From Alphaproteobacteria bacterium (GTDB lineage Bacteria > Pseudomonadota > Alphaproteobacteria > UBA2966 > CAIVPW01): a stretch of DNA of 40,619 nucleotides. The stretch is taken from positions 1-40,619 of the forward strand of contig CANKGV010000022.1 of the NCBI GenBank assembly GCA_947481575.1. The letters run 5' to 3'. The position numbers and the translations under genes were made by a program. Below are positions 17,620 to 36,251 of this stretch, one piece after another (positions within the stretch are counted from its first letter, which is position 1; every line of letters starts with the position of its first letter). The notes under the pieces are model-generated. The model saw only the letters and a list, made by a program, of their open reading frames with translations, ran no database searches and was not told where the DNA came from.

Positions 17620-18495
17620 CTAGGCGATCATGCCCATCTTGCGCCAATCCTGCAGGAACAGGCGCTCGGGCGGCTGGTCGGTCGGCACCAAGAGGTAGCG
17701 GCCATTGGCACGAGTGAACAGACTGTGTAACTGCTCGCGCCACGCTTCCAGGCTGCGCGCATAACGATCGCGGGTGGAGCGATCCAACGCGACCTCGACC
17801 TCGTGGCCGGTTTCGTGGTCGACCAGGCGGACTTCGCCTTCGCCGAGGGCGCTGGGGTCCATCTCTTCGCGCGAGGTAACGTGCATCCCCCACACTTCAT
17901 TGCCGGTGGTGTTGAGAATGCGGATCTCTGATTCGATGCCTTCGGTCCACCAGTCGCTGATGAGCACGATCAGTCCGCGGTTGGTAAGATGGCGCAGCGA
18001 CTCGCGTACCGCAGTGCCATACGCACCCGTGGTCGCCGCCTTTTGCCCCGACATCCAGTTGAATAGCGCCTGTGAGCGCTGGGCGCCGTGCAACTTGGGC
18101 GACCAGTGAATTCGTTCCCCGGCCCCGATGCCGACCTGGACCTGATCGCCGCCCGCCAACCCAATGAAGCCCATCAGGGCCGCCAAGTTGCACGCATATT
18201 CGAACTTGTTCGGAGTCCCGAAGTCCATCGACCGGCTGCCATCGACCAGAATGGTAATGGGTAGCTGGCGATAGACGTCGTACTCGCGCACGTAGTTCTT
18301 GCCGAACCGCGCGTGCAGATGGACGTCGAGATGCCGGAAGTCGTCACCCGCGTGATATTCGCGGTGATCCGCGAATTCCATGCCCGAGCCCTTGGCATTC
18401 GAACGCCGCTCGCCGACGCCGACCGACGCGGTCTGCCAGCGTGTAACCAGCTTTGACCGCGTCAGCTTGCTCAGCAGCGCCGGGTTGGGGGTCAC
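17620..18495 (-). CDS. DUF58 protein, MoxR partner (MxaS-like)
   Basis: The protein has 291 residues, starts at a GTG that overlaps the moxR stop (GTGA), and has no membrane segment. The DUF58 core includes EFADHREYHAGDDFRHLD (about 40-57). A von Willebrand A-like fold follows with a metal-site motif DGSRS (85-89). DUF58 proteins act with MoxR ATPases; in the mxa cluster of methylotrophs the DUF58 member is MxaS, needed for methanol dehydrogenase activity. The link to that role here is inferred from nearness to the PQQ dehydrogenase. It is the last gene of the four-gene operon; the 142 bases that follow hold no clear terminator. Confidence 0.9.
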   Translation of the reverse strand: MTPNPALLSKLTRSKLVTRWQTASVGVGERRSNAKGSGMEFADHREYHAGDDFRHLDVHLHARFGKNYVREYDVYRQLPITILVDGSRSMDFGTPNKFEYACNLAALMGFIGLAGGDQVQVGIGAGERIHWSPKLHGAQRSQALFNWMSGQKAATTGAYGTAVRESLRHLTNRGLIVLISDWWTEGIESEIRILNTTGNEVWGMHVTSREEMDPSALGEGEVRLVDHETGHEVEVALDRSTRDRYARSLEAWREQLHSLFTRANGRYLLVPTDQPPERLFLQDWRKMGMIA

Positions 18496-19529
18496 GCGGC
18501 TTTCCGGGTCTCGGCTTCGAGCAGGCGCGCCATCAGCGCCTGAGCGTCGATCCCTTCTGCTAGGCCCTCGTAGTTGAGCTGGCAGCGATGGCGCATGACC
18601 GGCGGCAAGACCGCCTGCAGGTCCTGGAAGCTGACGTTGTAGCGGCCGCTGAGCAGCGCGTTGCCCTTGGCAGCTAGAATCATCGACTGCGCACCGCGCG
18701 GGCTGAGCCCGAAGGTGAAGTACTTGGCGATCTCGGCCGGGCTACCGGTGTTGCCGGGCTGCGTGGCGATGGCGAAGCGGGCCACCGCGCGTTGCACATG
18801 CGCCGCCACCGGCACTTGGCGCACCAGCTTTTGCAGCAACAGAATGTCTTCGGCCGAAAGGACCTGCTTTGGCACCGGCAGTTCGACACCGGTGGTGAGA
18901 TCGAGAATGCCGTGCAGATCTTCCTCGTTCGGGTAGTTCACCAAGCTCTTGAACAGGAAGCGGTCGATCTGGGCCTCGGGCAGACGGTACGTGCCCTCCA
19001 TTTCGATCGGGTTCTGCGTGGCCAGCACGAAGAACGGCTTCGGCAGCACCATGCTGCGCCCGCCGGCAGTCACCGTGTGCTCCTGCATGGCTTCGAGCAA
19101 CGCAGACTGCGTCTTTGGCGTGGCGCGGTTGATTTCGTCGGTCAGCAGAATCTGGGTGAAGATCGGACCCGGCTGGAACGTCAGCTTGGTGCGGCCGTTT
19201 TCATCGGGGATCAGCGCAAGGCTGCCCGTGATATCGGCCGGCATCAGATCGGGCGTGAACTGGATGCGGGCGAAGCTTAGCCCGGCCACGGTGCCGAGCG
19301 TACGTACCAGCAGGGTCTTACCCACGCCGGGTGCGCCTTCCAGCAACACGTGGCCGCCGCAGATCAAAGCGATCAGCAACTGCTCGACCACGTCACGCTG
19401 GCCCACCACCGAGCGGGCCATTTCGTCGCGCGCACGCCGCAAAGCGTCAAGCATGCGCTCCAACGCCGCGGTGTCCATCGTCTCGACCTTGGGACCGGCG
19501 TTGCCGGTCTTCACTTCATTCAGAGCCAT
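18492..19529 (-). CDS. MoxR-family AAA+ ATPase
   Basis: The protein has 345 residues. Walker A is GAPGVGKT (65-72), Walker B is LLTDEINR (128-135), and the segments LLEAMQE and [15 protein letters not shown] that mark MoxR follow. MoxR ATPases are hexameric chaperones that mature enzymes together with von Willebrand A proteins, often inserting metals or cofactors. It lies between the large VWA protein gene (60 bases upstream) and the DUF58 gene, which overlaps its stop, the usual arrangement. Which enzyme it matures is unknown; the divergent PQQ/lanthanide dehydrogenase is the obvious candidate. Confidence 0.95.
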
Positions 19530-19589: not shown

Positions 19590-22500
19590 CTACGACGGCA
19601 CCAGGCCGCTCGACCGGCGATTCAGGCCGAACAGCCCCGGCGCATGGCGAATCGCCAAGTCCAGCATGAACAGAATCAGCGCCAACGCTGTCCACAGGCG
19701 CCATTCCGGCTGCGCCACCCAATGGCGGGCGTCGTCGAACACCGGTTTGTCGCCGAGCAACAGCTTGCCGCCGGTGGCGGCGGCCACTGCCTGCAGCTTG
19801 TCGAAATCCGACCGCACGAAATCGTAGCGCGCTGGGTAGCCGACATACACGCCGGCGCTGCGCGACAGCTCATCGGCCTTTACCTCGACCACGTACGATC
19901 CGGTCTGGGTGGCAGCGAACACGCCTTGATAGTGGCCGGGTGAAGACTCGCTGAGCGAGACCGAGGTGCCGGGGGCATCGCCAAAGTTCGCGAGCACCAT
20001 GTGACCGATCAGCGGCGCACCGTCCTTATCCAACAGGTCGGCGGCAACCTCGATGGTATCGCCCGAGCGGTGCAACGCGACCGTCAAGCCCGGACCCGGG
20101 GTATCGCCCAAGAACTGCCGAATCGCCTGCGCCCACAGCAGCGGGTACTCCGCCAAGTGAGTCCATTCCTGGGTACCGGCACCGGCGCCATGGGTAGCGA
20201 ACGACAGCACGTGGCCGTTGCCGTAACGCCAAGACGCAAGCAGCGGCGTGATCTCGCCGTCCTCTTCGTTGACGGTCATGTGCACGTCGGCCGCAGGCTG
20301 CGCGGTGGTGCGGACGTATCCATGCACCGGCGGCATGGACTGCGGCATGCCGGACAGGAAATCCGCACTGCGATCGGCCCAGGCCACTTGCGCAGTCCGG
20401 TCCTTCACCGGCGAAGTGGTCAGCATCAGGGTTTCCTGCGCAAGAATGCTCGGCAGCGCCTTGAAGTCTTCCGTTGCGTAGAACGCACCGCCGCCGCGCT
20501 GGGCGATGTCCTGCGGCTGGCGTACGTCGGCGCTACTGCCGATCGCGATGGCAGAAACCGTGACACCGAGTTTCTTGGCCTTGTCGAGCAGCGCGCCGAA
20601 GTCGGCATCTTGGGACAGGCCGTCGGTCATGACCACGATGTGTTTGATCGCCGCGTCCGACGTGGCGATCATATCGATCCCCAACTGCAGACCCGGAAAG
20701 ATGGATGTGCCGCCGCCAGGCACGAGGGGCCGCAATGCATCGCGGATGCCGGCTTCGTCCTTCTGATCCTGCAGCGCGAGCAAGATGTAGCCTTCCGAGT
20801 CGAACACGACGATCCCGACTTGCGACTCGTCGTTGAGCAGACTCACGGCGGACAAGGTCGCCTGTTTGGCGATGTCGAGGCGCGTGATGATGCCGGTGGT
20901 ATCGACGGCGCCAATCATGCTGCCCGAGCGGTCGAGCACGAACACCATCGCGATGCGCGGAGCTTCGTGCGCGACCTTGGCGGACAGCGGCGAGAGGCGC
21001 TCGAACGGCGTTTCGAAATAGCCGCCGGGGCCGAATGAGTTTTCTCCGCCCAGAATCAGCAGGCCGCGGCCATATACCTGCACCAACTTTTCGAGCTGCT
21101 CCTGCTGCTCGGTGTCCATCGCGATGGCCGGCATGTTCATGAGTACGACCGCGTCGTACTTCATCCAGCCTTCCATCTTCATCGGCACTTTGCTGGGCCG
21201 CACCACGGTTGCGGTCAGCCCTTGAACCGCCAGCGCATGAGCGAAGTAGTCGCCCATGTCGACTTCGTCGGTGATGATCGCGATCGTCGGCGTTGCGGCG
21301 ACTTCGACGAACAGCCCGTCGGTGTTGTTCTGCGCGAAGGTATCGCGATCGGACTTCGCGCTGACTTCCAGCAACAGGTCGCCCGCATCCCCGGCCGGGA
21401 TCACCGATTCGACTCGATTGCGGCCCGGGACAAGATCGACTTCTTCATCCAGCGACGGAACGCCTGCCCGCTTGATGGTGACTCTCGCCTTGGTGGTGCC
21501 CTGGCTGTAGATCACCGCGTCCAGAAGGAACGTGTCGCCGGCAAACACGCGGGACGGTGCGCGGATCGACTCGACCAAAACTTCGCCAGGCGGCAATTCC
21601 GTCAACGGCTGGATGTCGACGGTGAGCCCGCGGGCACGCAGCAGGCCGATCGAACGGCTTATGTCGCCGGCAGTCTCGTTGCCATCGGTCGCCAGCACGA
21701 CGCGGCCGGCGCGGTGCGCCGGCACCATTGCGGCGGCAAGGCGAACCGCTTGCTCCAAGTTCGTGCCGGCCGGCGCAACCTTCGTGACGCCGCCGGCAGC
21801 CACCGCGTTGACGCCGGCGTCGGCCGTAATCGTATTGAATGCACCCGTGGTCACAAGACCCGCATGGGCGCCGCCGGCATTGAGGTTGGCTTGGACCTGC
21901 TTCAGCACGCGGTCGCGGTCGGTGTTCTTGCTTTCGGGCCCGAGGTCCGTGGCAAGCACAACAACGACCTGCTGGGCCGGTTCGCGCAACAGCACCGGCA
22001 TGCCAACGATTGCCGCCACCAGGAGCGCCGCTGCGGCGGCGCGTACCCCCAACTGCAGGCGGCGGCGAACGGCCAGTGGGTTCGTCGAGGCAAGGCCGGT
22101 ACGGCGCAGGAACTGCTCGGGTCCGCGCCCGGCGATCCAGGCTTCGACGAGCAATACGGCGAGCGCCGCGACCAGCAGCCAATTCCATACGGGAACGGTC
22201 GGCTTGGTCTCTTCGGCGGCGGCGGCGGCCGGGTCGAGCGCGGCAAGCGCGGTCTCTCCTGCCACAACGGCGTTAACCGGTACCAGATGCGATTCGTTCT
22301 TGCCCTCGATGCGGTAGAAGCCAGCACGGTCGGGCACGAAGCCAAGTTCGACGCCGGGCAACAAGAATTCGGCGGTGCGGGACGCGCCGGTCCACACCTC
22401 AACTCCATCGGGGCTGAGCACGCGCCCGGTGATCAGACGCGATTCAATCGGGCACGGGACGCCGACGGCGCACACGGCCTCGGCTACAGCACCGGGTTCA

Positions 22501-23957
22501 ACGCCGAGCCAGTGCACCAGATTGGTGATGAATACCGGGAAGCCGGTGCGGTCTGTCCACTCCGAGTCCTTCAGTTCGAACGCAAGCTGGACTTCACGGC
22601 CGCGCGGCGTCGTGCGGGCCTGCACCAGCGGGAAGCCGCCGGTCTCAGCCAGGACGGCAGCACCCGGCATGCGTGCGACGCGGTACGCGGTTTGGGCAGT
22701 GATCGCAGTCCAGTCGACGCCGCGCGCCAACACGTGGTCGGCGTTCCATCCGGTGACGTATGACTCTTTGAGCGCCGCGGGCTTGGTCTGGCCGGCGATA
22801 TACGCGTCGCGCAGCCACAGGACATTGGTGTTGGGCCGCCGCGACAGTGCGACGCCATCGGCGATAACGAGATCATAGATGTCGTCGTCAACCGGCAGCG
22901 CATTGGCGGCGCTGACGACCACGTTCTGGATCGACTGCAGCGCCGAGATCAACTGGTGATTGGGCTCACCGACGTACAACACGTAGGCGACCGCCGGCTT
23001 GTTGCGCAGCACGAAGTTGACTTCGTTGTCGGCTGGCCCCGCGTCGGCGGGCAATTGCAGCGTGAGCGCGCCGGGCCCCGGCACGTCCATCTGCATGGTG
23101 AACGTTTCCTCGGTGTCGCCGCTGCGGCGCACGACCTCGGTGGTTGCCAACTGGATGAATGCTTCCTGGCCCTCGGGCTGGAACAGCGCGCGGACTTCCA
23201 CGCGGTCGGGCTTCGCGCCCCCGAACCGGACTGCGCCGACGAAGCGCCACTTGCCGGTTTCGGCTTTGACCGGCACCGCACGGGCCGTGAGCCCGACATT
23301 CGTCGCGTCCGGACCGGCGACCAGTGTCTGCGTGCTGTGGACCGCCGGGAACATCTCGGCGAAGATCTTGGCGCCCGCGTCTGCACCATCGGTCAGCACG
23401 ACGATCTCGGTCGGCTCGCCATCGCGTACCAGCGGCGCAACCAGATCGGCCGCACCCTTCCAGTCCGCCGGACCATCGCCGGCACGCATGCCATCGGCCG
23501 CGTGCACCGCAGCACTTGCCGCTTGGCGCGCTACCACGAGCTGCGCTGTAGCGCCCGCGAACACGACCGAGACCCGGTTGCCGGGAACTGGCGCGCTCGC
23601 TTCGATCATGCCGGTAAGGCGGGTCACCGCATCTTCAAAGCGGCTCGGCTTGAGGTCGGTCGCCCGCATGCTGGCGGAGGCGTCGACCACATAAATGGTG
23701 TGCTCGCGGCCGCGGCTCGGCCCCAGCAACGGCTGGGCCAGCGCAATGGCGATTAGAATTACCGCCGCAATCTGCAGCAGCATGAGGATATTCGGCGTCG
23801 GCAAGCGCAACGAGCGGCGGCGCGCGACGTTATTTTCCAGCAATCGCCACAGCATGACGCTCGGCACATCGAGATGGCGCCGGCGCTGCATATGGAGGAT
23901 CAGGACGAAAACCGTCAGCGCCCCCACCGCGAGCCAAACGGGGGCTAATAAGCTCAC
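19590..23957 (-). CDS. Large membrane protein with two von Willebrand A domains (BatA-like fusion)
   Basis: The protein has 1455 residues and a GTG start overlapping the upstream stop. Order: a BatA-like N-terminal membrane segment (about 1-25), a second at about 57-75, and a first VWA domain with metal site DASAS (92-96). Two central membrane segments follow near 585-605 and 635-655, then a second extracytoplasmic part. That part has a glutamine-amidotransferase-like Rossmann region (about 885-985, from TIAIITDEVDMGDYFAHAL), a second VWA domain with a perfect DRSGS (1009-1013), a beta-rich region and a C-terminal membrane segment near 1420-1440. It looks like two normally separate proteins joined end to end. 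MoxR ATPases act with such VWA proteins. Its client is unknown. Confidence 0.88.
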   Translation of the reverse strand: MSLLAPVWLAVGALTVFVLILHMQRRRHLDVPSVMLWRLLENNVARRRSLRLPTPNILMLLQIAAVILIAIALAQPLLGPSRGREHTIYVVDASASMRATDLKPSRFEDAVTRLTGMIEASAPVPGNRVSVVFAGATAQLVVARQAASAAVHAADGMRAGDGPADWKGAADLVAPLVRDGEPTEIVVLTDGADAGAKIFAEMFPAVHSTQTLVAGPDATNVGLTARAVPVKAETGKWRFVGAVRFGGAKPDRVEVRALFQPEGQEAFIQLATTEVVRRSGDTEETFTMQMDVPGPGALTLQLPADAGPADNEVNFVLRNKPAVAYVLYVGEPNHQLISALQSIQNVVVSAANALPVDDDIYDLVIADGVALSRRPNTNVLWLRDAYIAGQTKPAALKESYVTGWNADHVLARGVDWTAITAQTAYRVARMPGAAVLAETGGFPLVQARTTPRGREVQLAFELKDSEWTDRTGFPVFITNLVHWLGVEPGAVAEAVCAVGVPCPIESRLITGRVLSPDGVEVWTGASRTAEFLLPGVELGFVPDRAGFYRIEGKNESHLVPVNAVVAGETALAALDPAAAAAEETKPTVPVWNWLLVAALAVLLVEAWIAGRGPEQFLRRTGLASTNPLAVRRRLQLGVRAAAAALLVAAIVGMPVLLREPAQQVVVVLATDLGPESKNTDRDRVLKQVQANLNAGGAHAGLVTTGAFNTITADAGVNAVAAGGVTKVAPAGTNLEQAVRLAAAMVPAHRAGRVVLATDGNETAGDISRSIGLLRARGLTVDIQPLTELPPGEVLVESIRAPSRVFAGDTFLLDAVIYSQGTTKARVTIKRAGVPSLDEEVDLVPGRNRVESVIPAGDAGDLLLEVSAKSDRDTFAQNNTDGLFVEVAATPTIAIITDEVDMGDYFAHALAVQGLTATVVRPSKVPMKMEGWMKYDAVVLMNMPAIAMDTEQQEQLEKLVQVYGRGLLILGGENSFGPGGYFETPFERLSPLSAKVAHEAPRIAMVFVLDRSGSMIGAVDTTGIITRLDIAKQATLSAVSLLNDESQVGIVVFDSEGYILLALQDQKDEAGIRDALRPLVPGGGTSIFPGLQLGIDMIATSDAAIKHIVVMTDGLSQDADFGALLDKAKKLGVTVSAIAIGSSADVRQPQDIAQRGGGAFYATEDFKALPSILAQETLMLTTSPVKDRTAQVAWADRSADFLSGMPQSMPPVHGYVRTTAQPAADVHMTVNEEDGEITPLLASWRYGNGHVLSFATHGAGAGTQEWTHLAEYPLLWAQAIRQFLGDTPGPGLTVALHRSGDTIEVAADLLDKDGAPLIGHMVLANFGDAPGTSVSLSESSPGHYQGVFAATQTGSYVVEVKADELSRSAGVYVGYPARYDFVRSDFDKLQAVAAATGGKLLLGDKPVFDDARHWVAQPEWRLWTALALILFMLDLAIRHAPGLFGLNRRSSGLVPS

Positions 23958-25528: not shown

Positions 25529-25859
25529 GGTGGTGGTGGTTGACCCTTACGAACCGGCGCAGATGCTCGCATGAGTCCCCACGCATATGCAAACAACTGA
25601 CGCGTTCTTGGGCACAAGTCAGTGTGACCGCATCAAGGCGGCGGAAACCCGGGGCCGAATTGGATACCCTGGGGTGCTTGGGCATGCGCCGTAAACGGCC
25701 CCATCCGCTGCGCAAGCAATTGTGAATGCGGCTCCATGCGGGCAGATGCCCGGACGGGTCCCAGGATGTTGACAGGCACATCCGGTTCTGCGTGACTCCC
25801 GGCAGTATGCTTGGCGTACTGTAATCGTGTCTCTATGCGTACGGGGGAGGGGATCAAAA
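25529..25859. promoter_or_regulatory. Divergent control region between the MoxR operon and the PQQ dehydrogenase operon
   Basis: This 331-base gap separates two divergent operons and holds no gene I can support. An inverted repeat CAGTA-N9-TACTG lies at 25803-25821, and TGTAAT (25820-25825), five of six matches to a -10 box, overlaps its right arm; no matching -35 is seen. The strong site GGGGGAGGGG at 25842-25851 precedes the cytochrome ATG at 25860. A TTGACA at 25768-25773 has no -10 at the right spacing. Coordinated control of both operons from here is plausible but inferred. Confidence 0.45.
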
Positions 25860-26297
25860 ATGAAATCCACCAATATCGTTCTGTCGGTAGCGGCTCTGGC
25901 TGCTCTGACCGTTTCATTTGGGTTCAGCGCTGTTGCCGTGACGGATCGTCCGGCACCGGCCGGTGTGAACCAAGAACCGATGATTCAAGTTGCGCAGGCT
26001 GTGGACCTGGCGACCCTCATGTCTGAAGGCGCCAAGTTGTATGCGGCGAACTGCTCACCCTGCCACGCCGACAAAGGTCAAGGTGGCGCAGGGCCGAAGC
26101 TTGCGGGGAACGACTTCGTCAAGAGTTCCGGCGCAGTGATCACCCAAATCTTCCAGGGCAACGAGGAACACGGCATGCCGCCGTTTGCCGATGCCCTGAA
26201 GGATCGCGAAATCGCGGCGATTGCGACCTACGTTCGCAATTCGTGGGGCAATACTTCAGGAATCGTGCTTCCGGACGAAGTCGCCAAGACCCGTTAG
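25860..26297 (+). CDS. Periplasmic c-type cytochrome, probable electron acceptor of the PQQ dehydrogenase (XoxG-like)
   Basis: The protein has 145 residues: an N-terminal signal or anchor (about 5-27), then one class I cytochrome c domain. Haem attaches at CSPCH (65-69) and the sixth ligand is probably Met106 in GMPPF. The small mono-haem cytochrome upstream of a PQQ alcohol dehydrogenase is normally its electron acceptor, passing electrons to the terminal oxidase. The start at 25860 follows a very strong ribosome site; an upstream GTG-type start is rejected. The next gene, the dehydrogenase, is 139 bases away with a hairpin in between. Confidence 0.9.
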   Translation: MKSTNIVLSVAALAALTVSFGFSAVAVTDRPAPAGVNQEPMIQVAQAVDLATLMSEGAKLYAANCSPCHADKGQGGAGPKLAGNDFVKSSGAVITQIFQGNEEHGMPPFADALKDREIAAIATYVRNSWGNTSGIVLPDEVAKTR

Positions 26298-26436: not shown

Positions 26437-28329
26437 ATGACCATGCGGATGACAGTATCCGCGTCCTTGCTGGCGATGGCAGCCGCTAGCGGGATGTCTG
26501 GCGTCGCCGTCGCAAACGACGACGTGCTCAAGCTTTCGAAGGACCCTGCCAACGTCGTGATGCCGAGCATCACCTACAACGGCTGGAACTACAGCCAGCT
26601 GACCCAGATTACGCAGGACAACGTCAAGAACCTGCAGCTGGCCTGGACCCTGCAGATCGGCATTCTCGACCAGCACGAAGCTTCGCCGCTGGTCGTTGGC
26701 GACACGATGTACATCGTGTCCCCGAAGCCGAACTACGTGTACGCCCTGGACCTGACGAAAGACGGCGTCATTAAGTGGGAATTCCGTCCCACGATGGACG
26801 TCGCCTTGGCGACTGCCCAGACCTGCTGCGGCGCGCAGACCCGCGGTCTGTACTACGCTGAAGGGAAGATCTTCTACGCAACCCTCGACGGCCAGGTGAT
26901 CGCGCTCGACGCGAAGTCGGGCGAGCAGCTGTGGCGCAACGTCGGCGCGGACATTGTCCGCGGCGAAGGCATGGCCGGCAACGCGCTGGTCATCCACAAC
27001 CTGTTCATCGGCGGTAACGAAGGTGGCGAGCGCGGCGCACGCGGTAAGGTGCACGCCTACGACATCAACACCGGCAAGAACGCCTGGACCTTCTACAACA
27101 TGGGTCCGAACAACGAAGTCGGCATCGGCCCGAAGTTCAAGCCGTTCTACGCCGACGACAAGATCCCGAACCCGGGCCTCGATTCCTGGTGGAAGGATTC
27201 GTGGAAGACCGGCGGCGGCACCTCGTGGGGCTACTTCACGTGGGATCCGGACGTCGACATCTTCCACTACTCGACCGGCAACTGCGGTCCGTGGAACCCG
27301 GACTACCGCCGCGAGTGGGGCAAGATCGACCTGGACGCCAACGGCGGCCTGAAGTCGTACAAGAGCAACTACTGCGCGTCGCAGATGGCGCGTAACGGCA
27401 CCACGGGCGAACTGATCTGGGCGTACAACATCACCCCGCAGGATCATTGGGACCTTGATGAGCCGCTGATCACCCCGTTGGTCGACATGACCATCAACGG
27501 TGTGCTCAAGAAGACGGCGGTCAAGTTTGCCCGCGACGGTTTCTTCTATGTTTGGGACCGCGTCACCGGCGAAATGTTGATCGAGCCGTGGATGGCCGAG
27601 TACCAGGACCTCAGCAAGGGCATCGATATGGCCACTGGTCGTCCGAAGTACGACATCGAGAAGATGATGTTCACCAACGTGGAAGACCGCCGCAAGTACA
27701 CGCAGGCGGATCCGCGCGGCGCGACGAAGCCGGCCGGTTACACGGGCACCGAAGTTGAGTACTGCCCGGGCACTGCGGCCCGCAACTGGGAAAACGACGC
27801 CTGGTCGCCCCGCACCAACCTCCTGTACACGCACTCGGACACGAGCTGCGCGATTCAGATCGTTGTGACCGGTGAGTACAAGCCGGGCGAGGGCTACACC
27901 CTGCGTCAGACCGCGGGCAATCCGGCCATCCCCAACAAGGGCATGGACGGCAAGGCGACGACCGTTCTGTCGAACCTGAAGGCCAACGACCCGATCGGCC
28001 GCAAGACCGCTTGGACCGTGCCGTACAACGACGGCGGCCGCGTCCCGGTCATGGCGACCGCGACCGACTTGCTGTTCCACGGCAACCAGGCTGAGGGCAC
28101 CTTCCAGGCGCTCGATGCCAAGACCGGCAAAGTGCTGTGGTCGTTCCGCGCTGGCGCCCGTTGGGGCCAGTCGCCGATCAGCTACTCGTTCGGTGGCAAG
28201 CAGTACATCGCCATCATCGCCTCGTCGGCCGCGGCCAACACGGCCGTCGCCGCCAACGCGGCCCCGGACAACGCGAACCGTTATCGCCGTTCGGGCACCA
28301 CGCTGTACGTGTTCAAGCTGCCCGGCTAA
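26437..28329 (+). CDS. PQQ-dependent alcohol dehydrogenase, lanthanide type (XoxF/ExaF-like)
   Basis: The protein has 630 residues: a signal peptide (cleavage near AVAN at 24-27), then an eight-bladed propeller. It oxidises a primary alcohol in the periplasm with PQQ and passes electrons to cytochrome c. The vicinal disulfide is Cys130-Cys131. By alignment to methanol dehydrogenase from memory, metal and catalytic residues are Glu198 (in GGERGARG), Asn282 (in STGNCGPW), Asp339 and the extra Asp341 (HWDLD), the D-x-D mark of lanthanide enzymes; calcium-type MxaF has Ala there. Arg366 fits the active-site Arg. The spacing between Asn282 and Asp339 is about 15 residues longer than in MxaF/XoxF. 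A strong GGGAGG site precedes the ATG and codons favour C-ending forms, suggesting high expression. The exact alcohol is not determined. Confidence 0.9.
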   Translation: MTMRMTVSASLLAMAAASGMSGVAVANDDVLKLSKDPANVVMPSITYNGWNYSQLTQITQDNVKNLQLAWTLQIGILDQHEASPLVVGDTMYIVSPKPNYVYALDLTKDGVIKWEFRPTMDVALATAQTCCGAQTRGLYYAEGKIFYATLDGQVIALDAKSGEQLWRNVGADIVRGEGMAGNALVIHNLFIGGNEGGERGARGKVHAYDINTGKNAWTFYNMGPNNEVGIGPKFKPFYADDKIPNPGLDSWWKDSWKTGGGTSWGYFTWDPDVDIFHYSTGNCGPWNPDYRREWGKIDLDANGGLKSYKSNYCASQMARNGTTGELIWAYNITPQDHWDLDEPLITPLVDMTINGVLKKTAVKFARDGFFYVWDRVTGEMLIEPWMAEYQDLSKGIDMATGRPKYDIEKMMFTNVEDRRKYTQADPRGATKPAGYTGTEVEYCPGTAARNWENDAWSPRTNLLYTHSDTSCAIQIVVTGEYKPGEGYTLRQTAGNPAIPNKGMDGKATTVLSNLKANDPIGRKTAWTVPYNDGGRVPVMATATDLLFHGNQAEGTFQALDAKTGKVLWSFRAGARWGQSPISYSFGGKQYIAIIASSAAANTAVAANAAPDNANRYRRSGTTLYVFKLPG

Positions 28330-28387: not shown

Positions 28388-28509
28388 GCGCGGGTCGTTC
28401 CTTACCAACGCGGTGGTGTAGACTGCCGCGCCGCGCGTTCCCGCGATCCAGCGAAGGACGCCGGCTTGCGCGCTTATGGCCGGGAACGGCAGCAACGGTG
28501 AGAAGTCCC

Positions 28510-29334
28510 ATGATCCGAATTGGCTCAACCCAACCGCTCGGCATTGCAGCCCGCATTGCGGCGCTGACGATCACGGCCCTCGCGGTATTCGCGCCACCGG
28601 CCTCCGCGTGGGAACTGCGTGTTTGTGCCGATCCGGACAAACTCCCCTTTTCGCGCTCCGATGGCGCCGGGTTCGAGAACAAGATCGCCGAGCTGATCGC
28701 CAAGGAACTGCACGCCGACCTTACGTTCCTGTGGACCCCCCAGACCCCGGATATGATCAACCAGGCATTGCGGGTCGGGGAGTGCGATATCATCGCTGGC
28801 GTTGAAGACGGTCAGGCAGCACTTACCTCCACCCTCGCCTACTACCGCAGCCCGATGGTGTTTCTGCAGCGCGCCGATAGCCAGCCGCGCGTCGAGATGT
28901 TCGACGATCCGGCGCTTCGCAATATGCGCATCGGGATCCAGCCTTCCGGCGGCGTCGCCCACGATGCGCTGGAAGTGCGCGGCCTCGGCGCGAACTTGAA
29001 GTTCTATGACTTTCTGATGACTCCAATCATCGAAGACATCGCCAAGGGAACCGAGATTGACATCGGTGTTCTATGGGGGCCGGCCGCCGGGTATTTCGGG
29101 GCCCTGCAGGACGTACCGATGGTGGTCTCGCCGGTCACGCCGGAGTTTGAGCCGCCGTTTACGCCCATGTACATCAATATCGTAATGGGGGTCCGGCGTG
29201 GCGACGAAGCGCTGCGCGACCTTCTCGATTTCGCCATCTCCCAGCAATGGGAGGCAATCAACGCCGTTTTAGCGGAGTTCCACATTCCGGTCATGCCGCT
29301 AAGCCGCCCGATACTTACTTTGGGAGCGCAGTAG
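28510..29334 (+). CDS. XoxJ/MoxJ-like periplasmic solute-binding protein
   Basis: The product has 274 residues with a Sec signal peptide (about 1-31, cleavage after ASA) and a type II periplasmic-binding fold (ELRVCADPDKLPFS onwards). This is the quinoprotein-dehydrogenase-associated group, called MoxJ/XoxJ, encoded next to methanol and other PQQ dehydrogenases. Family members are thought to help mature or activate the dehydrogenase in the periplasm rather than to feed a transporter. I chose ATG 28510 over a GTG twelve bases upstream because it starts the signal peptide more naturally. The gene is two bases from the next binding-protein gene, so the two are cotranscribed. Confidence 0.88.
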   Translation: MIRIGSTQPLGIAARIAALTITALAVFAPPASAWELRVCADPDKLPFSRSDGAGFENKIAELIAKELHADLTFLWTPQTPDMINQALRVGECDIIAGVEDGQAALTSTLAYYRSPMVFLQRADSQPRVEMFDDPALRNMRIGIQPSGGVAHDALEVRGLGANLKFYDFLMTPIIEDIAKGTEIDIGVLWGPAAGYFGALQDVPMVVSPVTPEFEPPFTPMYINIVMGVRRGDEALRDLLDFAISQQWEAINAVLAEFHIPVMPLSRPILTLGAQ

Positions 29335-29336
29335 CC

Positions 29337-30653
29337 ATGTGGACCCCGAACCGTCGCCAACTCCTGGTCGCGGGTGGCGCCGCCGCCTCGGCTGCCCTGC
29401 TTCGCCCGGCCGGCGCGCAGGTCAAGACGCTCCGGCCATTCCGTGTCGGCGTCGTGCTTCCCGCCAAGACGGGATTGTCCACGGTGCGGACCTCGATCAC
29501 CGACTATGCGGGTGAGGCGGGACGCATGGGCACCATTCTGGCCGAGGGCAAGATCGGCGACCCGGCTAGTGCCGCCGGCTGGCACCTTGAGGTCCTGCAG
29601 GCCAATTCGCCGAGCGCGGACGCAGCGAAACGTGCCGGCGAGCGTCTAGCCGCCACCGGCAACATTTGCGCCCTGGTCGGCGGCGTCGGCGACGGCCAAG
29701 CCGAAGTGCTGAGCGCGATTGCCGAGAAGGCAAGAATTCCGTTCTTCAACATCGGCTCGCCAAACGATGCTCTGCGCAACGCGGCCTGCGGGCGCTACAC
29801 GTTCCACATCGAAGCAAGCGCCGCGATGTACCTCGACATGCTGGTCACGTGGTCGGCCGCCAAGGGACAGAAGCGTTGGTTCGTCGTCCACGAGGACAAC
29901 GATGCCGGCAAGCGCTTGCTGCAGCGCGCCACCAAGTCGATCGCAACGTTCGGGGCCGGCGGTACCGTCGTTGCCTCGGCCGCGGTCAAGCGGGAGGCGC
30001 CCGCGTACATCAACGAGCTCAATGCTGCCGGTCGCTCCGGCGCCGATGTCTTCTTGATGCTGCTCAACGGCTCGGACCAGATCGCGTTCCTTGGCAATAT
30101 GGACGATATGGGTTTGCCGGCCGCGGTCGTGGCGTTGCCCGATGCGGTGACGCAAACCCGCGACTACATCGTCTCGGCCCGGTACCTCGCGCCCGGCACC
30201 AACCCGCGCTACCGCCCCACGGCATGGGATTGCACCATGACCGCCAACGGCGCGGCTGAGTTCAACAACTCGTTCCTGTTGCGGTGGAGCTTCCCTGCCG
30301 ACCCGACCGGTTGGGCCGCGTTCAGCGCCATCAAGATGGTATTCCAGGCCGCCCAGGCGACGAACTCGCTCGACGGTCCGACGGTAGCGAAGTACCTCGA
30401 GGCACCGGGCACCACGTTCGACCTGGGGAAAGGGCCGGGCGTGTCGTTCCGTCCGTGGGACCACCAGCTGCGCCAGCCACTCTATATGATCAAGGTCGAT
30501 CAGGACGTGGAGTGGCAGCGGGAGGAAATCCCGACGTGGATCGCGCTTGCCTCGGTCGGTGCCGAATTTCCGGCGGCGAACCAGACCGGAACTGCGATCG
30601 AGCGCCTGGACCGGTTCGGCGATGGCGCCACCGGATCGGCTTGCAAGTTCTGA
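29337..30653 (+). CDS. LivK-like binding protein of the PQQ-alcohol-dehydrogenase ABC system, copy 1
   Basis: The product has 438 residues and a twin-arginine-like signal (NRRQLLVAGG, cleavage near AGAQ). A type I periplasmic-binding fold follows, of the kind usual for branched-chain amino acid receptors. The segments NIGSPNDALRN, ASAAMYLDMLVTW and SFRPWDHQLRQPLY match the second copy at 34758-36044, so they are paralogues. This group is known as the binding protein of the PQQ-dependent alcohol dehydrogenase ABC cluster. The ATG at 29337 follows GGGAG and sits two bases after the XoxJ-like stop; an earlier start inside that gene is rejected. Its ligand is unknown. It faces the ABC operon, separated by 39 bases with a GC-rich hairpin. 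Confidence 0.87.
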   Translation: MWTPNRRQLLVAGGAAASAALLRPAGAQVKTLRPFRVGVVLPAKTGLSTVRTSITDYAGEAGRMGTILAEGKIGDPASAAGWHLEVLQANSPSADAAKRAGERLAATGNICALVGGVGDGQAEVLSAIAEKARIPFFNIGSPNDALRNAACGRYTFHIEASAAMYLDMLVTWSAAKGQKRWFVVHEDNDAGKRLLQRATKSIATFGAGGTVVASAAVKREAPAYINELNAAGRSGADVFLMLLNGSDQIAFLGNMDDMGLPAAVVALPDAVTQTRDYIVSARYLAPGTNPRYRPTAWDCTMTANGAAEFNNSFLLRWSFPADPTGWAAFSAIKMVFQAAQATNSLDGPTVAKYLEAPGTTFDLGKGPGVSFRPWDHQLRQPLYMIKVDQDVEWQREEIPTWIALASVGAEFPAANQTGTAIERLDRFGDGATGSACKF

Positions 30654-30692: not shown

Positions 30693-31592
30693 TTAGCGGC
30701 TTTTCAGCATCCGGCCCATCATAAAGGCCGCCACAACGGTGGCGACCAGGGGCAGGGCGAAGGTCACCAGCAGGTCGGCGGCCATCGGCAGCTGTTCGAA
30801 GCCCAGCAGCACGTGGCGCAGCAGGTCGAGCTGGTAGCTCACCGGATTGCAGTAGACCAACACCTGAATCCATGCGGGCAACTGCACAACCCAGCCCCCG
30901 CCAATGGCAAAGATGCCGAGCCGGCGCAGTTCATCGCGCAGTGCGTCCGGGATCTGAATGAACCCCACGCCGCCGATCACGCCACGTAGCGGGAAGATTG
31001 AGCCCGACAGAAAGTACAGCGGCTGGATGACGCCGTTGGCGATCGCGCCGAAGCCCTCGTAGGTCTTCAGGCGCGTCGCGATGATGACGCCCACGGCGGT
31101 CATCAGAATGCCCATGAAGAACATGACGACCCACGCCTCGATGATCGCCACCGGGTCGATCGCGACGTAGATGCCGGGCAGGAACAGTAGCGGAATGGTG
31201 CCCTGCACCACCGCGATGCTGGCCCCGCCCAGCAGCTTGCCGAGGGTCACCGACAGCATGGGCGCGGGCGATACCATAACCTCGCGCAACAGCCCAACCT
31301 CGCGATCCCACACCAGCGAGATCGCGCACTGCAGCGACGCGTACAGCACGTTCAGCGTGATCACGCCGGGCAAGATGTATTGGCCATAGGTGTAGCCTTC
31401 GATCTCGCGCAGCGACGCGCCGAGGCCGAAGCCGAGAATCACCAGCCACAGGATGGTTCGCGACAAACCGCCCCACAGCTGCGAGCGGTCGCGGAAGAAG
31501 CGCAACATCTCGCGCTGCCACATGATGTGGACGACCGCGGGGGAAATTCCCATCCAGGCCTTGACGCCGATCGGAGCCGCCATTTCGGTCAT
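30693..31592 (-). CDS. ABC-2 type permease of the PQQ-alcohol system (PedC-like)
   Basis: The protein has 299 residues and about six membrane helices in the ABC-2 export arrangement, with an N-terminal amphipathic helix and the conserved membrane region LYASLQCAISLVWDREVGLLREVMVSP. It should move its substrate outward across the inner membrane using the ATPase in the next gene. Such permeases accompany PQQ alcohol dehydrogenases in Pseudomonas (PedC in the ped cluster), but the substrate is unsettled. Its ATG overlaps the ATPase stop (ATGA, 31589-31592). It is the last gene of the four-gene operon. Confidence 0.88.
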   Translation of the reverse strand: MTEMAAPIGVKAWMGISPAVVHIMWQREMLRFFRDRSQLWGGLSRTILWLVILGFGLGASLREIEGYTYGQYILPGVITLNVLYASLQCAISLVWDREVGLLREVMVSPAPMLSVTLGKLLGGASIAVVQGTIPLLFLPGIYVAIDPVAIIEAWVVMFFMGILMTAVGVIIATRLKTYEGFGAIANGVIQPLYFLSGSIFPLRGVIGGVGFIQIPDALRDELRRLGIFAIGGGWVVQLPAWIQVLVYCNPVSYQLDLLRHVLLGFEQLPMAADLLVTFALPLVATVVAAFMMGRMLKSR

Positions 31593-32410
31593 CGCGTGTG
31601 TTCGCCTCCGCGTTTACCGAAGCTCACGGTCATTTCGCGCGCGGTCGCGCTTTCGGTGCGCAGCGCATGGCCGGTCATCCGGATGAATACATCTTCCAAG
31701 GTAGCGCCGGGCGTGGTGGCGTGTTTGGCGACCAATTCTGCGGGCGGGCCGATAGCAACCAGCTTGCCCTTGTCGATGATGCCAACCCGGTCGCACGCCT
31801 CGGCCTCGGGCATGTAGTGGGTGGTCATCAACACCGTCATGCCGTTTTCGCGCAGGGCACCGATGCGCTCCCACAAGTTGCGGCGCCCTTGGGGGTCGAG
31901 GCCCAAGGTCGGTTCGTCGAGAAACAATACCCGCGGCTTGTGCATGATCGCGCGGGCCAGTTCCAAGCGGCGCTTCATGCCGCCGGAGAACGCGCGCACC
32001 CGGCGCTTACCGACCTCCGTGAGCGAAGCCCAAGTCAGGGCCTCGTCCACCGCCTGGCGGCGGTCGCGCCGCGCGATGCCATACAGCACCGCGTGAATCT
32101 CAAGGTTCTCGGCGGCGGTTAGGCGCTCATCCAGCGCCGGATCCTGGAACACCATGCCCAGTTCGCGCCGCACGGCCTTGGCCTCGGTCACCACGTCGTG
32201 GCCCATCACCGTCGCTTGGCCCGAGGTGGGCGCGACCAGCGTCGTGAGGATGTGCATGACCGTGGACTTGCCGGCGCCGTTCGGGCCCAACAAGGCGAAG
32301 AATTCGCCCCGTGCGACGGCAAACGACACACTTTCGGCCGCCACTACATTTCCGTAGCGGCGGCCGATCTCGATTGCCTCGATGGCGGCGGAAGGCGTTG
32401 TTGGCGTCAA
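31589..32410 (-). CDS. ABC transporter ATPase of the PQQ-alcohol system
   Basis: The protein has 273 residues. Walker A is GPNGAGKST (42-50), the ABC signature is FSGGMKRRLELARA, Walker B is RVLFLDEPTLGLD, and the switch His sits in MTTHYMPEAEACD. This is the drug-export (DRA/NodI-like) ATPase type that works with ABC-2 permeases. The likely start is TTG at 32408-32410, overlapping the upstream stop and preceded by AAGGA; no ATG lies near. It overlaps both neighbours by four bases, so the operon is tightly coupled. Confidence 0.93.
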   Translation of the reverse strand: MTPTTPSAAIEAIEIGRRYGNVVAAESVSFAVARGEFFALLGPNGAGKSTVMHILTTLVAPTSGQATVMGHDVVTEAKAVRRELGMVFQDPALDERLTAAENLEIHAVLYGIARRDRRQAVDEALTWASLTEVGKRRVRAFSGGMKRRLELARAIMHKPRVLFLDEPTLGLDPQGRRNLWERIGALRENGMTVLMTTHYMPEAEACDRVGIIDKGKLVAIGPPAELVAKHATTPGATLEDVFIRMTGHALRTESATAREMTVSFGKRGGEHTR

Positions 32411-33498
32411 TGCAGATCCTTGGCCGCCTCATTGAACACGGTAACCAGCTCCCGGCACAACTGCGCATTCGAAACCTGGCGCGTGTCCGGGGGCAGATTC
32501 TCAAAGCCCTCGTAGAAATCGTATTCCACCTCGACCAACCGCGGAAACACCTGAGTCGCCTTTTGGCGCAGGTTCACCGAAATAAGATCGAGCGTACCGG
32601 CCAGCTGCACCCGGTAGTGATCGAGCACCGCCGACACCCCTTCGACGCCGATGGCATCGTCGCCGCGCTCATAGGCCTCGCACGCGGTGGTCGTGACAGC
32701 CGCCAAGTGAGTTGCCAGGCGCCTCAGATCGCGGCCGGTGTGGAGATACGAATCACCGACCAGTTCGATTAGGCCGACCATCTGGATCGCCAGCGCTTCC
32801 ACGTCTTCGGCTTCCTCCGCCGGGAACGGAATCTTCGGCTCTGGCTTGGCGTAGAACACGGACTTCAACACATCCAGCACGCCGTTGCCTTCGGCGCGCT
32901 GGGCGGGAGTGGCCTGCGGAGCGATTTCCGCCCACAGCACCTCGACGCGGCGAACTGCGGCCCAGCCGTTGGGGTAGCCCCAGTTCTCCCGAATTGCGTC
33001 CTCGAACGCTTCGGCGACGCCATCGTTCGCCATGAGCAGGTTCGCGAGAACCGCGGCTTTGAAGTGCGTGGTCTTCTGCACCGCGGGATCGACGACGACG
33101 TCATAGGCCTGGGCCAGCAGCGCACGCGCTTTGACCACCTCGGCGGTGACCGCCTTGCCTCCCTGCACGTCCGCCATCACGTCATGCAGCGCCGCGGCCA
33201 GGCTCTTCTCCAGCGCCGGGTTGCCCTTCGCGAGGGTGCCGCGAAAGCGGGCGAAGTCGCGTAGTTCCATGCGCTGCAGCTGTGGCACCAACGCGGGGTT
33301 CACCGGCGCGGCGAACGCCTGCGCCATGTTGAGGCGCTGGCCGACCATTTCGAAGCCGTAGGCCTGGCTCTGGAACAGCAGGTTCTCGAAGAACGGATCG
33401 AATTTATGGGTTTCCTGTTGGGCGTTGGCCGGCAGGGCCGCCATCGCGGAAACGCATACGACGCCAGCGGCAATCCACATGCGAATGTGGTTACCCAT
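32407..33498 (-). CDS. Exported helical protein of unknown function in the PQQ ABC operon
   Basis: From the ATG at 33496-33498 (preceded by GGAG) the product has 363 residues with a Sec signal (about 1-26, ANAQQ). The mature protein is almost wholly alpha-helical and contains a single cysteine near the C-terminus (in AQLCRELV). A stretch of alternating charged and hydrophobic helices suggests an all-alpha repeat or bundle. I recognise no named domain. It overlaps the beta-propeller gene by eight bases and the ATPase gene by four, so it belongs to the same protein complex or pathway. A periplasmic adaptor between the ABC exporter and the propeller is possible but is only an inference. Confidence 0.75.
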   Translation of the reverse strand: MGNHIRMWIAAGVVCVSAMAALPANAQQETHKFDPFFENLLFQSQAYGFEMVGQRLNMAQAFAAPVNPALVPQLQRMELRDFARFRGTLAKGNPALEKSLAAALHDVMADVQGGKAVTAEVVKARALLAQAYDVVVDPAVQKTTHFKAAVLANLLMANDGVAEAFEDAIRENWGYPNGWAAVRRVEVLWAEIAPQATPAQRAEGNGVLDVLKSVFYAKPEPKIPFPAEEAEDVEALAIQMVGLIELVGDSYLHTGRDLRRLATHLAAVTTTACEAYERGDDAIGVEGVSAVLDHYRVQLAGTLDLISVNLRQKATQVFPRLVEVEYDFYEGFENLPPDTRQVSNAQLCRELVTVFNEAAKDLH

Positions 33499-34546
33499 GG
33501 GGGATAACTCCGATTTGGACCGAGTGGGCCCCGCGGCCCGCCTGGATGGTGTTGACCACACACATGCACTGCGTGTCGATCACCGACACGCTGTCCGACA
33601 GCCCGTTCGCGGTATAGATCTTCTTGCCGTCGGGAGTCATGGTGACGCCCCACGGGCGGCGGCCCATGTTCTCTTTGATCGTCGTGGAAACCTTGTTGGT
33701 GTCCGTGTCGATTACGTAGATGGAGTTGGTGCCGCCACCAGCCACGTACAAGCGCTTGCCGCTGGGGTCGACGATCAGTTCCACCGGGCGCGAGTCCAGG
33801 CCGAGGTTGATCGTACCGCTTACCAACTGAGTCTTGGTGTCGATGACCGAGATCGTGCCGCCGATTTCGGCGCTCACGTAAGCCTTCGATCCGTCGAGCG
33901 AGAACACCACCACGCGCGGCCGGTTGCCGACGAGCAGGTGCTTGATGATCTTCTTGTTCTCAATGTCGTAGATCGTAACCGTGTGGGTTGCTTCGGCGGT
34001 CAGGTACACCCACTTGCCGTCGGGGCTCACTGCAACGCCTTCGGCCTCGATGCCGGTGCGGAAGGACACGAAGTTTTCGCCGGTGCCGATATCGTACCCC
34101 GCACCCTGCGCGCGCGCTTCGAGCGACGCCCAAATTTGCGTCCCGGTCGGGTTCAGCGCCAGCCGTTCGGGGTTGCCACCCGCGCGGTACTCGCGGATCA
34201 CCTGGCTGGTACGCACGTCGATCGCGATGATCTTGTCTTCCGGAGTTTCGAACTCCGGATGGAAGTCGCTGACCGCCACATAAATGATCGTGCCATCGGG
34301 GCTGACCGACATGCCGCGTGGCCGCACCACTCCGGGACGGCCGGAGATCTGAATGGTGCCGACCAACTTGTCGGTCGCGGTGTCGATCACCGAAATGTCG
34401 GCGCCGTACTCGTTGGCCACATAAATTCGGTAGGTGTCTTGGGCCTGGGCGCTGGCAACGCCCGCACCGAGAACCCCTGCCGCCAACACGAACCCGGCCA
34501 CCGTAGCGCGCGCGCAACGGCGCTTCAGCACTGCAAACATACTCAC
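33491..34546 (-). CDS. YVTN beta-propeller protein of the PQQ-alcohol system
   Basis: The product has 351 residues: a signal peptide (cleavage near ASAQAQ), then repeats with the YVTN/SPDG pattern. Examples are YRIYVANEYGADISVIDT, MSVSPDGTIIYVA, VAVSPDGKWVYLT and MTPDGKKIYTANG, giving a beta-propeller of about seven blades in the periplasm. This protein is a regular member of the PQQ-alcohol-dehydrogenase ABC cluster. The GTG at 34544-34546 has a GGGGAG site at good spacing; an ATG two codons on would be too far. A CMC pair near the C-terminus is unusual. It starts the operon, with regulatory repeats upstream. Confidence 0.9.
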   Translation of the reverse strand: MSMFAVLKRRCARATVAGFVLAAGVLGAGVASAQAQDTYRIYVANEYGADISVIDTATDKLVGTIQISGRPGVVRPRGMSVSPDGTIIYVAVSDFHPEFETPEDKIIAIDVRTSQVIREYRAGGNPERLALNPTGTQIWASLEARAQGAGYDIGTGENFVSFRTGIEAEGVAVSPDGKWVYLTAEATHTVTIYDIENKKIIKHLLVGNRPRVVVFSLDGSKAYVSAEIGGTISVIDTKTQLVSGTINLGLDSRPVELIVDPSGKRLYVAGGGTNSIYVIDTDTNKVSTTIKENMGRRPWGVTMTPDGKKIYTANGLSDSVSVIDTQCMCVVNTIQAGRGAHSVQIGVIPHG

Positions 34547-34757: not shown

Positions 34758-36044
34758 CTACTTCTTGCACTTGGTCTGCGCGGCTAAATCGCCCAACTGG
34801 TCGAGGCGCTCTACGAGTTCGGTGCCGGGGAGGTAAATGGCCGGCAACTCACCGACCAAGTTCCCGTATTCCATCAGCGTTGCCGCCTTGGGATTGATCT
34901 TGTCGAGGAACAGCGACTGGCGCATCTGCCGGTCCCACGGCCGGAACGAAGAGCCCAGGCCCTTGTACAGGTCGAAGATGCTCGCCGGGTTCGTCATGTA
35001 GCCCATGACTTTGGCGGGCTTGTCGGACTCAGAAAAGAACGCTGCCTCGTACAAAATCTTGATGCCGGTGAACACCGACCAAGCCGACTCTCCCATCGGC
35101 TCGTCCCAGCGCACCAGAAAGCGCGCGTTGTATTCACGGGCGCCGTAGGCGTCGAGGCTCGGCTCCCAGGCGGTGGCACGGTAAGCGGCACCCAGGGTCG
35201 GAGCGGCCTTTGCGGCTGCAGCAAAGAACACCCGCGTTTGGGCTTCGGGATACGGGAAGCCGGTCACGTTGAGGGAGATACCAGCGGCGTCCAATTCGCT
35301 CATGGTGCGCAGTTGGTCCTTGGCACTCACAAGCATCACAACGACATCGGCACCCGACTTCTTGATCGCCGCCACCAGGGCGGCACCCCCGCTGGCCCCC
35401 GGCTTCAGAACCGTCCTGCCGGCCTCGCGCGCCCCGAAATGCCGGTTGGCCATCGACCACTTCACCCGGTCGTACTGCGCTTTGCTCTCGGGCGTGTCTT
35501 CTTGGATGAAGTACCACTTGCGGAAGTTGGAACGGACGTACCAACCCACCATGGCATCCAGATACATCGCTGCACTGGGTTGGAGGTGGAATGTCGTAGT
35601 TCCGCACAGCGCGTTGCGCAAAGAGTCCGCCGACGAGCCGACATTCATGTAGGGAATGCCCTTGGCCTTGGCCCAGGCGCTCAGCGCCGCCGACTCTGTG
35701 AGGCTGAACCCGCCAACGATCGCATAAGCACCTTCTTGGGTGACCAACCGCTCGGCAGCGGCAACGACATCAGCCCCCTCGGCGGTGGCGGAAACGACCG
35801 AGAAATCGATTCCCAGCATCTCCGCCGTTATTCCAAGCTCTTCGTTCGCCTGCACGACCCCCTGCTTGGCCGAATGGGCAACCGCATCGCCGAGGACGGC
35901 GTCCGGGGTACCTTTTTCGGGTGGGAGGATCACGCCGACATGAATTGGATGGTCAAACTGGGCCTGGGCCCCCGCAGGCACGGCAAGGAACCCCACCCCC
36001 GCCACGACGGCGACCGCCGACAGGCACTGCAAAAGCTTGTTCAC
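34758..36044 (-). CDS. LivK-like binding protein of the PQQ-alcohol-dehydrogenase ABC system, copy 2
   Basis: The product has 428 residues from the GTG at 36042-36044, which follows GGGGAGA. It has a Sec signal peptide (KLLQCLSAVAVVAGVGFLAV, cleavage near AGAQAQ) and a type I periplasmic-binding fold. It shares NVGSSADSLRN, QPSAAMYLDAMVGWY and SFRPWDRQMRQSLFL with copy 1 at 29337-30653, but has an ordinary Sec signal in place of the twin-arginine-like one. It ends in a Lys/Cys tail (TKCKK). It lies upstream of the ABC operon in the same direction, 211 bases away. A longer frame to 36140 includes non-coding residues. Its ligand is unknown. Confidence 0.87.
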   Translation of the reverse strand: MNKLLQCLSAVAVVAGVGFLAVPAGAQAQFDHPIHVGVILPPEKGTPDAVLGDAVAHSAKQGVVQANEELGITAEMLGIDFSVVSATAEGADVVAAAERLVTQEGAYAIVGGFSLTESAALSAWAKAKGIPYMNVGSSADSLRNALCGTTTFHLQPSAAMYLDAMVGWYVRSNFRKWYFIQEDTPESKAQYDRVKWSMANRHFGAREAGRTVLKPGASGGAALVAAIKKSGADVVVMLVSAKDQLRTMSELDAAGISLNVTGFPYPEAQTRVFFAAAAKAAPTLGAAYRATAWEPSLDAYGAREYNARFLVRWDEPMGESAWSVFTGIKILYEAAFFSESDKPAKVMGYMTNPASIFDLYKGLGSSFRPWDRQMRQSLFLDKINPKAATLMEYGNLVGELPAIYLPGTELVERLDQLGDLAAQTKCKK

Positions 36045-36251
36045 GACGATCTCCCCTGCCAAACCGGACCCCTGCTCCCACAAGGGTCCTGAAGCCAGCG
36101 GGGGATAATGGCCCCACCACCACGGGCCACACAAGTTCACTCCCTCGCGACCGGTCCGTCATCCCCCATCTGCGCCTCGCGCGCGCCTTCGGTTGTAGGT
36201 ATTCTCTGGAATGGGGGTGGGTGCCGCGCAAATGCGGCCCCAGGGTGCGCG
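36045..36251. promoter_or_regulatory. Divergent intergenic region
   Basis: The 207 bases between the binding-protein gene (minus) and the thioredoxin-fold gene (plus) must hold two promoters. I see an inverted repeat GGACCC-N12-GGGTCC (36066-36089) close to the binding-protein start, but no convincing -35/-10 pair in either direction. Confidence 0.3.

Follow-up and report, generated by a model that had tools for sequence, protein, structure and literature searches.

The window, the whole 40,619-nucleotide stretch of DNA analysed here, corresponds to contig C22 of a genome 2.45 Mb in size and 98.7% complete. Its central feature is an open frame for a 630-aa protein with a signal-peptide-like N-terminus, which lies in the following locus:

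17620..18495, minus strand: DUF58 protein (PF01882), MxaS-like in position
18492..19529, minus strand: MoxR AAA ATPase (PF07726), conserved in the locus
19590..23957, minus strand: 1455-aa protein with von Willebrand A (BatA-like) regions, conserved in loci L010, L013 and L016
23954..25528, minus strand: 524-aa protein without family, conserved in the locus
25827..26297, plus strand: c-type cytochrome with one CxxCH (PF13442, weak TIGR03872), XoxG/MoxG-like in position, conserved in L010, L013, L014, L016 and L027
26437..28329, plus strand: the 630-aa protein
28498..29334, plus strand: MoxJ/XoxJ-like periplasmic binding protein (TIGR03871, 198.9 bits against a cut-off of 212), conserved neighbour
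29247..30653, plus strand: PQQ-ADH-system ABC substrate-binding protein 1 (TIGR03863, below cut-off), conserved neighbour
30693..31592, minus strand: ABC-2 type permease, PedC-like (TIGR03861, below cut-off), conserved neighbour
31589..32410, minus strand: ABC ATPase (TIGR03864, below cut-off), conserved neighbour
32407..33561, minus strand: 384-aa protein with no Pfam or NCBIfam match, conserved in L011 and L027
33491..34546, minus strand: YVTN beta-propeller, PQQ-catabolism associated (TIGR03866, below cut-off), conserved neighbour
34758..36140, minus strand: PQQ-ADH-system ABC substrate-binding protein 2 (TIGR03863, below cut-off), conserved neighbour

The order cytochrome c, dehydrogenase, MoxJ-like protein, PQQ-ABC genes, 384-aa protein, propeller and second binding protein recurs in genomes of lake Alphaproteobacteria, with the dehydrogenase present in one to four tandem copies per locus (four in L014). 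Roseitranquillus shares the locus from cytochrome c onward, and the MoxR, vWA and 524-aa genes recur in lake genomes and in Bauldia. A gene for a NosR-like protein (37096..39342, plus strand; 515.7 bits against a cut-off of 1000) adjoins the PQQ locus.

The 630-aa protein matches NCBIfam TIGR03075 at 418.2 bits, short of the curated cut-off of 480.05; because the match is full-length though below threshold, we read the protein as a divergent member of the family. Among solved structures its top sequence match is XoxF1 (7O6Z, 340 bits), and the other leading matches are likewise XoxF enzymes. Foldseek matches the predicted fold first to XoxF2 (4MAE, E 2.5e-47), and VIA-align matches it to XoxF 6DAM (Z 42.0, rmsd 2.5 over 539 residues). 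The eight-bladed propeller fold and the PQQ-site residues (CC pair, Glu, Arg, Trp) are those of PQQ-dependent methanol/ethanol dehydrogenases in the broad sense, and the D-x-D motif together with Glu and Asn ligands is that of the lanthanide type. By its sequence, the gene encodes a secreted PQQ alcohol dehydrogenase of lanthanide type that belongs to a new clade; the enzyme class is ordinary and the branch unusual. The residues on which the following analyses turn are these, all on the plus strand:

26824..26829: Cys130-Cys131, adjacent-cysteine pair above PQQ (aligns with CC104-105 of 4MAE)
27028..27030: Glu198, predicted metal ligand (aligns with Glu172 of 4MAE)
27280..27282: Asn282, predicted metal ligand (aligns with Asn256 of 4MAE)
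27283..27285: Cys283, replacing a conserved proline and invariant in the clade (alignment of 28 clade sequences)
27310..27363: inserted segment, about residues 292-309, with a predicted beta hairpin at 296-299/305-309 (alignments; DSSP of the model)
27373..27375: Cys313, replacing a conserved Ser/Thr and invariant in the clade (alignment of 28 clade sequences)
27451..27459: Asp339-Leu-Asp341, D-x-D motif of catalytic Asp and lanthanide-specific Asp (aligns with Asp299/Asp301 of 4MAE)

The original prediction had placed E198, N282, D339 and D341 in the order of a lanthanide-binding enzyme, and the column-for-column alignment with 4MAE bears this out. The Glu198-Asn282 distance is 84, as it had stated, and 84-88 in XoxF2 and XoxF5. 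Across 22 intact clade rows the four ligands, the CC pair, Glu81, Arg136, Trp264 and Arg366 are invariant, gaps aside, D341 among them. The position of XoxF2 Trp467 is Arg or Gln in most clade members, and those of Thr152 and Thr154 are mostly Gly or Ala. In the enzymes tested, the additional Asp is required for lanthanide use (work cited in PMC10875860 and PMC11996626), and Asp341 predicts such use here, short of proof.

An Asn282-Asp339 distance of 57, found in all 25 clade rows measured, had been set against about 42-43 in MxaF and XoxF. The contrast holds for XoxF2 (43), XoxF5 (42 and 42), MxaF (42) and PedH (42) and fails for XoxF1 7O6Z (55), whose published ligands Glu204, Asn290, Asp345 and Asp347 (PMC11845868) agree with the measured spacing. 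Because XoxF1 has 55, the view that such an excess is in itself unusual among lanthanide enzymes finds no support, and we dropped the idea that longer spacing alone marks a new enzyme. The 15-residue excess itself was correctly sized and misplaced in content: C283, C313 and PWNPDYRR occupy ordinary XoxF positions, and the insertion lies between the cysteines, at about residues 292-309. The segment CGPWNPDYRR aligns with the ordinary XoxF segment NPGTWNPxQR, in which C283 corresponds to the proline, and C313 corresponds to a serine.

The two further cysteines noted near the metal site proved to be a constant of the clade, present in 28 of 28 sequences (53-90% identity to the window protein) and in none of five references. 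Neither this constancy nor that of the spacing of 57 is a chance feature of one sequence. Clade cysteines change pairwise: two Bauldia paralogs lack both 130 and 131, four clade rows have both 441/473 in place of 443/471 and an added 549/576, and almost every complete member has an even count (4, 6 or 8). This pairwise gain and loss suggests that C283-C313 is probably a third, clade-specific disulfide that closes the base of the inserted hairpin. In the predicted model (mean pLDDT 72.5; 53-56 near residues 281-290 and 331-340), strands stop at 284 and restart at 316, with the hairpin at 296-299/305-309 in between. Because Cys283 directly follows the metal ligand Asn282, such a bridge would make the wall of the active site more rigid there. 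We think it quite unlikely that C283 and C313 are instead unbonded to each other and bind metal or stay reduced, given that the protein is exported, that cysteines come in even numbers and move in pairs, and that the model puts these two on either side of the base of the predicted hairpin.

Two peptide patterns, which set the reach of the search, were used to find relatives among 84,980 species genomes; they returned 22 loci, carried by MAGs from lakes, by two MAGs of Bauldia and by Roseitranquillus sediminis MCCB 386. Clade copies also occur in five more genomes within the source genome's family. Across 385 class-level and 398 phylum-level genomes, identity falls from at least 66% to at most 40% at the next best matches. 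A mixture-model tree of 55 rows unites its 16 clade rows with 100/100 support. Their stem measures 1.13 changes per column, the sister group of 31 rows contains XoxF1, XoxF2, XoxF5 and MxaF, and placement of the clade outside these enzymes is supported at 100/99 and 100/95. Because columns filled in fewer than 60% of rows, those of the insertion among them, were removed, this placement owes nothing to the insertion; the long stems in the tree are a reason for caution. Named references comprised one XoxF1, XoxF2, XoxF5, MxaF and PedH and two quinohemoproteins, with XoxF3 and XoxF4 at most among the unnamed rows. The phylogeny upholds the suggestion of a distinct clade: on this sequence evidence, it is a distinct, lake-dominated branch, sister to the sampled XoxF/MxaF enzymes. 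PQQ-ADH types 1-9 are said to be the scheme of Keltjens et al. 2014. Our literature search found no description of the clade, and an earlier naming is possible as Huang et al. 2019 and Keltjens et al. 2014 lay outside that search.

The enzyme could be a divergent XoxF1, with the same insertion and the same function and merely fast-evolving: XoxF1 is its best solved-structure match by sequence, the two N-D spacings differ by only 55 to 57, and the insertion has a similar stretch, PxYRxE...AN. The tree, however, groups XoxF1 with XoxF2 inside the clade's sister group. Forcing the clade together with XoxF1, for which there was one reference, costs 27.8 log units and is rejected (p-AU 0.0148), as is forcing it with XoxF1 and XoxF2 together (p-AU 0.0002). 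Moreover, the Asp directly before the metal Glu, diagnostic of XoxF1 (PMC8546591), is Gly197 here and in all intact clade members, and XoxF1 is without both cysteines. We consider a divergent XoxF1 very improbable. Tight placement in an XoxF clade sharing the insertion, which the original prediction had named as telling against it, is matched as to the insertion and contradicted by the tree and by Gly197.

The source genome contains 13 long TIGR03075 matches (contigs C1, C3, C6, C8, C11, C13, C14, C15, C18, C20, C22 and C43), five of which belong to this clade. A quick tree took in seven of the 13, all of which fell outside the XoxF/MxaF group; no tree contained the remaining six. Two of the five clade copies are broken at contig ends. 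Contig breaks fall inside clade copies at the end of C20, in C43 and at the end of C21, and fragments at both C43 ends suggest a tandem array beyond the assembly's resolution. Four paralogs, L018, L042 (the same gene in L142), L140 and L141, have lost E198 and carry S, V or G at 282, G or S at 339 and A or G at 366, yet keep the CC pair, C283/C313 and open frames; simple pairwise dN/dS among these metal-site-less paralogs is 0.22 to 0.44. The Bauldia paralogs L019 and L020, without CC130-131 and with N282S and R366A, have a dN/dS of 0.12 between them. Such ratios suggest that the paralogs are kept by selection.

Genes for formaldehyde handling were sought in seven carrier genomes (the source genome, four relatives, Roseitranquillus and Bauldia). 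None of the seven yielded Fae, and the same search matched G295 and G717. Class III formaldehyde dehydrogenase gave no above-cut-off match in six of the seven; it passed the cut-off in Roseitranquillus (G754) alone among carriers, plus the control G295. Taken together, these results suggest that an alcohol other than methanol may be the substrate. A search of the source genome for hexulose-phosphate synthase found none; the genome encodes a form I RuBisCO large subunit (C11:47993-48913) with the intact active-site motif GLDFTKDDEN. These findings make it less likely that the host is a classic methylotroph, and other formaldehyde routes or direct oxidation of methanol to formate may operate. 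PqqC was found in the four relatives, Roseitranquillus and Bauldia and not in the source genome, where an assembly gap or loss may account for it.

The most serious competitor is that the host is a methylotroph and the enzyme its ordinary methanol dehydrogenase, with formaldehyde handled by an unsampled route and carbon obtained via RuBisCO. The xoxFGJ-like gene order, the RuBisCO gene and the clade's sister relationship to methanol enzymes all fit, and we would still call this somewhat unlikely in view of the searches that found neither Fae nor hexulose-phosphate synthase, the lack of an above-cut-off class III formaldehyde dehydrogenase in six of seven carriers and the substitutions in most members at the XoxF2 Trp467, Thr152 and Thr154 positions. 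The MoxR, DUF58 and vWA genes, which resemble the mxa calcium-insertion set, could also point to a calcium enzyme despite its second Asp; the invariance of D341 in intact clade members and the requirement for that residue in tested lanthanide enzymes leave little room for this reading. The explanation we favour, with reasonable confidence, is a PQQ-dependent, probably lanthanide-dependent alcohol dehydrogenase of a distinct clade, with a disulfide-closed hairpin and perhaps a multi-carbon substrate. Counting against it are the low confidence of the model near residues 281-290 and 331-340 and the fact that, in known methylotrophs, genes of the MoxR/DUF58/vWA type serve the calcium-dependent (mxa) system and are reported to be dispensable for XoxF (PMC11845868).

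In the favoured explanation, a periplasmic PQQ enzyme, probably lanthanide-dependent, would oxidise an alcohol, perhaps a multi-carbon one instead of methanol, with the c-type cytochrome from the gene immediately upstream as electron acceptor. The MoxJ-like protein and a MoxR/DUF58/vWA maturation module would assist it, and the hairpin inserted between Asn282 and the D-x-D motif would have its base closed, probably by Cys283-Cys313. A fuller version, which we put forward tentatively and at rather less than even chances, would make this a separate lanthanide alcohol dehydrogenase family whose active-site loop is closed by a disulfide of its own and whose substrate is an alcohol other than methanol, in hosts without the usual formaldehyde pathways; the family would be tandem-amplified and have metal-site-less paralogs kept by selection for another role.

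To our knowledge, every lanthanide enzyme described to date is a PQQ alcohol dehydrogenase, and most of the tests have been made on XoxF1, 2, 4 and 5 and PedH/ExaF. A deep sister branch would supply an outgroup for the evolution of metal choice and substrate range. The branch is common in the sampled lake genomes of the source genome's family, is present in a named isolate strain and has a conserved locus; it suggests rare-earth-dependent alcohol oxidation in bacteria where standard methylotrophy genes were not found.

Compared with known systems, the window enzyme resembles XoxF1 of Methylacidimicrobium thermophilum AP8 (7O6Z) in fold, the four metal ligands, the CC pair and an insertion of nearly equal length, and departs from it in Gly197 for the diagnostic Asp, C283/C313 for Pro/Ser and a separate position in the tree. 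With XoxF2 (4MAE) and XoxF5 (6DAM, 6OC5) it shares the fold, the ligands, the E-N spacing and cytochrome and MoxJ neighbours, whereas those enzymes, at about 35% identity, have the short N-D spacing, no insertion and no C283/C313. MxaF, the calcium methanol dehydrogenase, has the fold, the CC pair and MoxR-type genes nearby in common with it but carries Ala at the position of the acidic Asp341 and lacks the insertion. The lanthanide ethanol dehydrogenase PedH/ExaF (6ZCW) is alike in fold, D-x-D motif and CC pair, and differs in its N-D spacing of 42 and in its position outside the group formed in the tree by XoxF, MxaF and the window enzyme.
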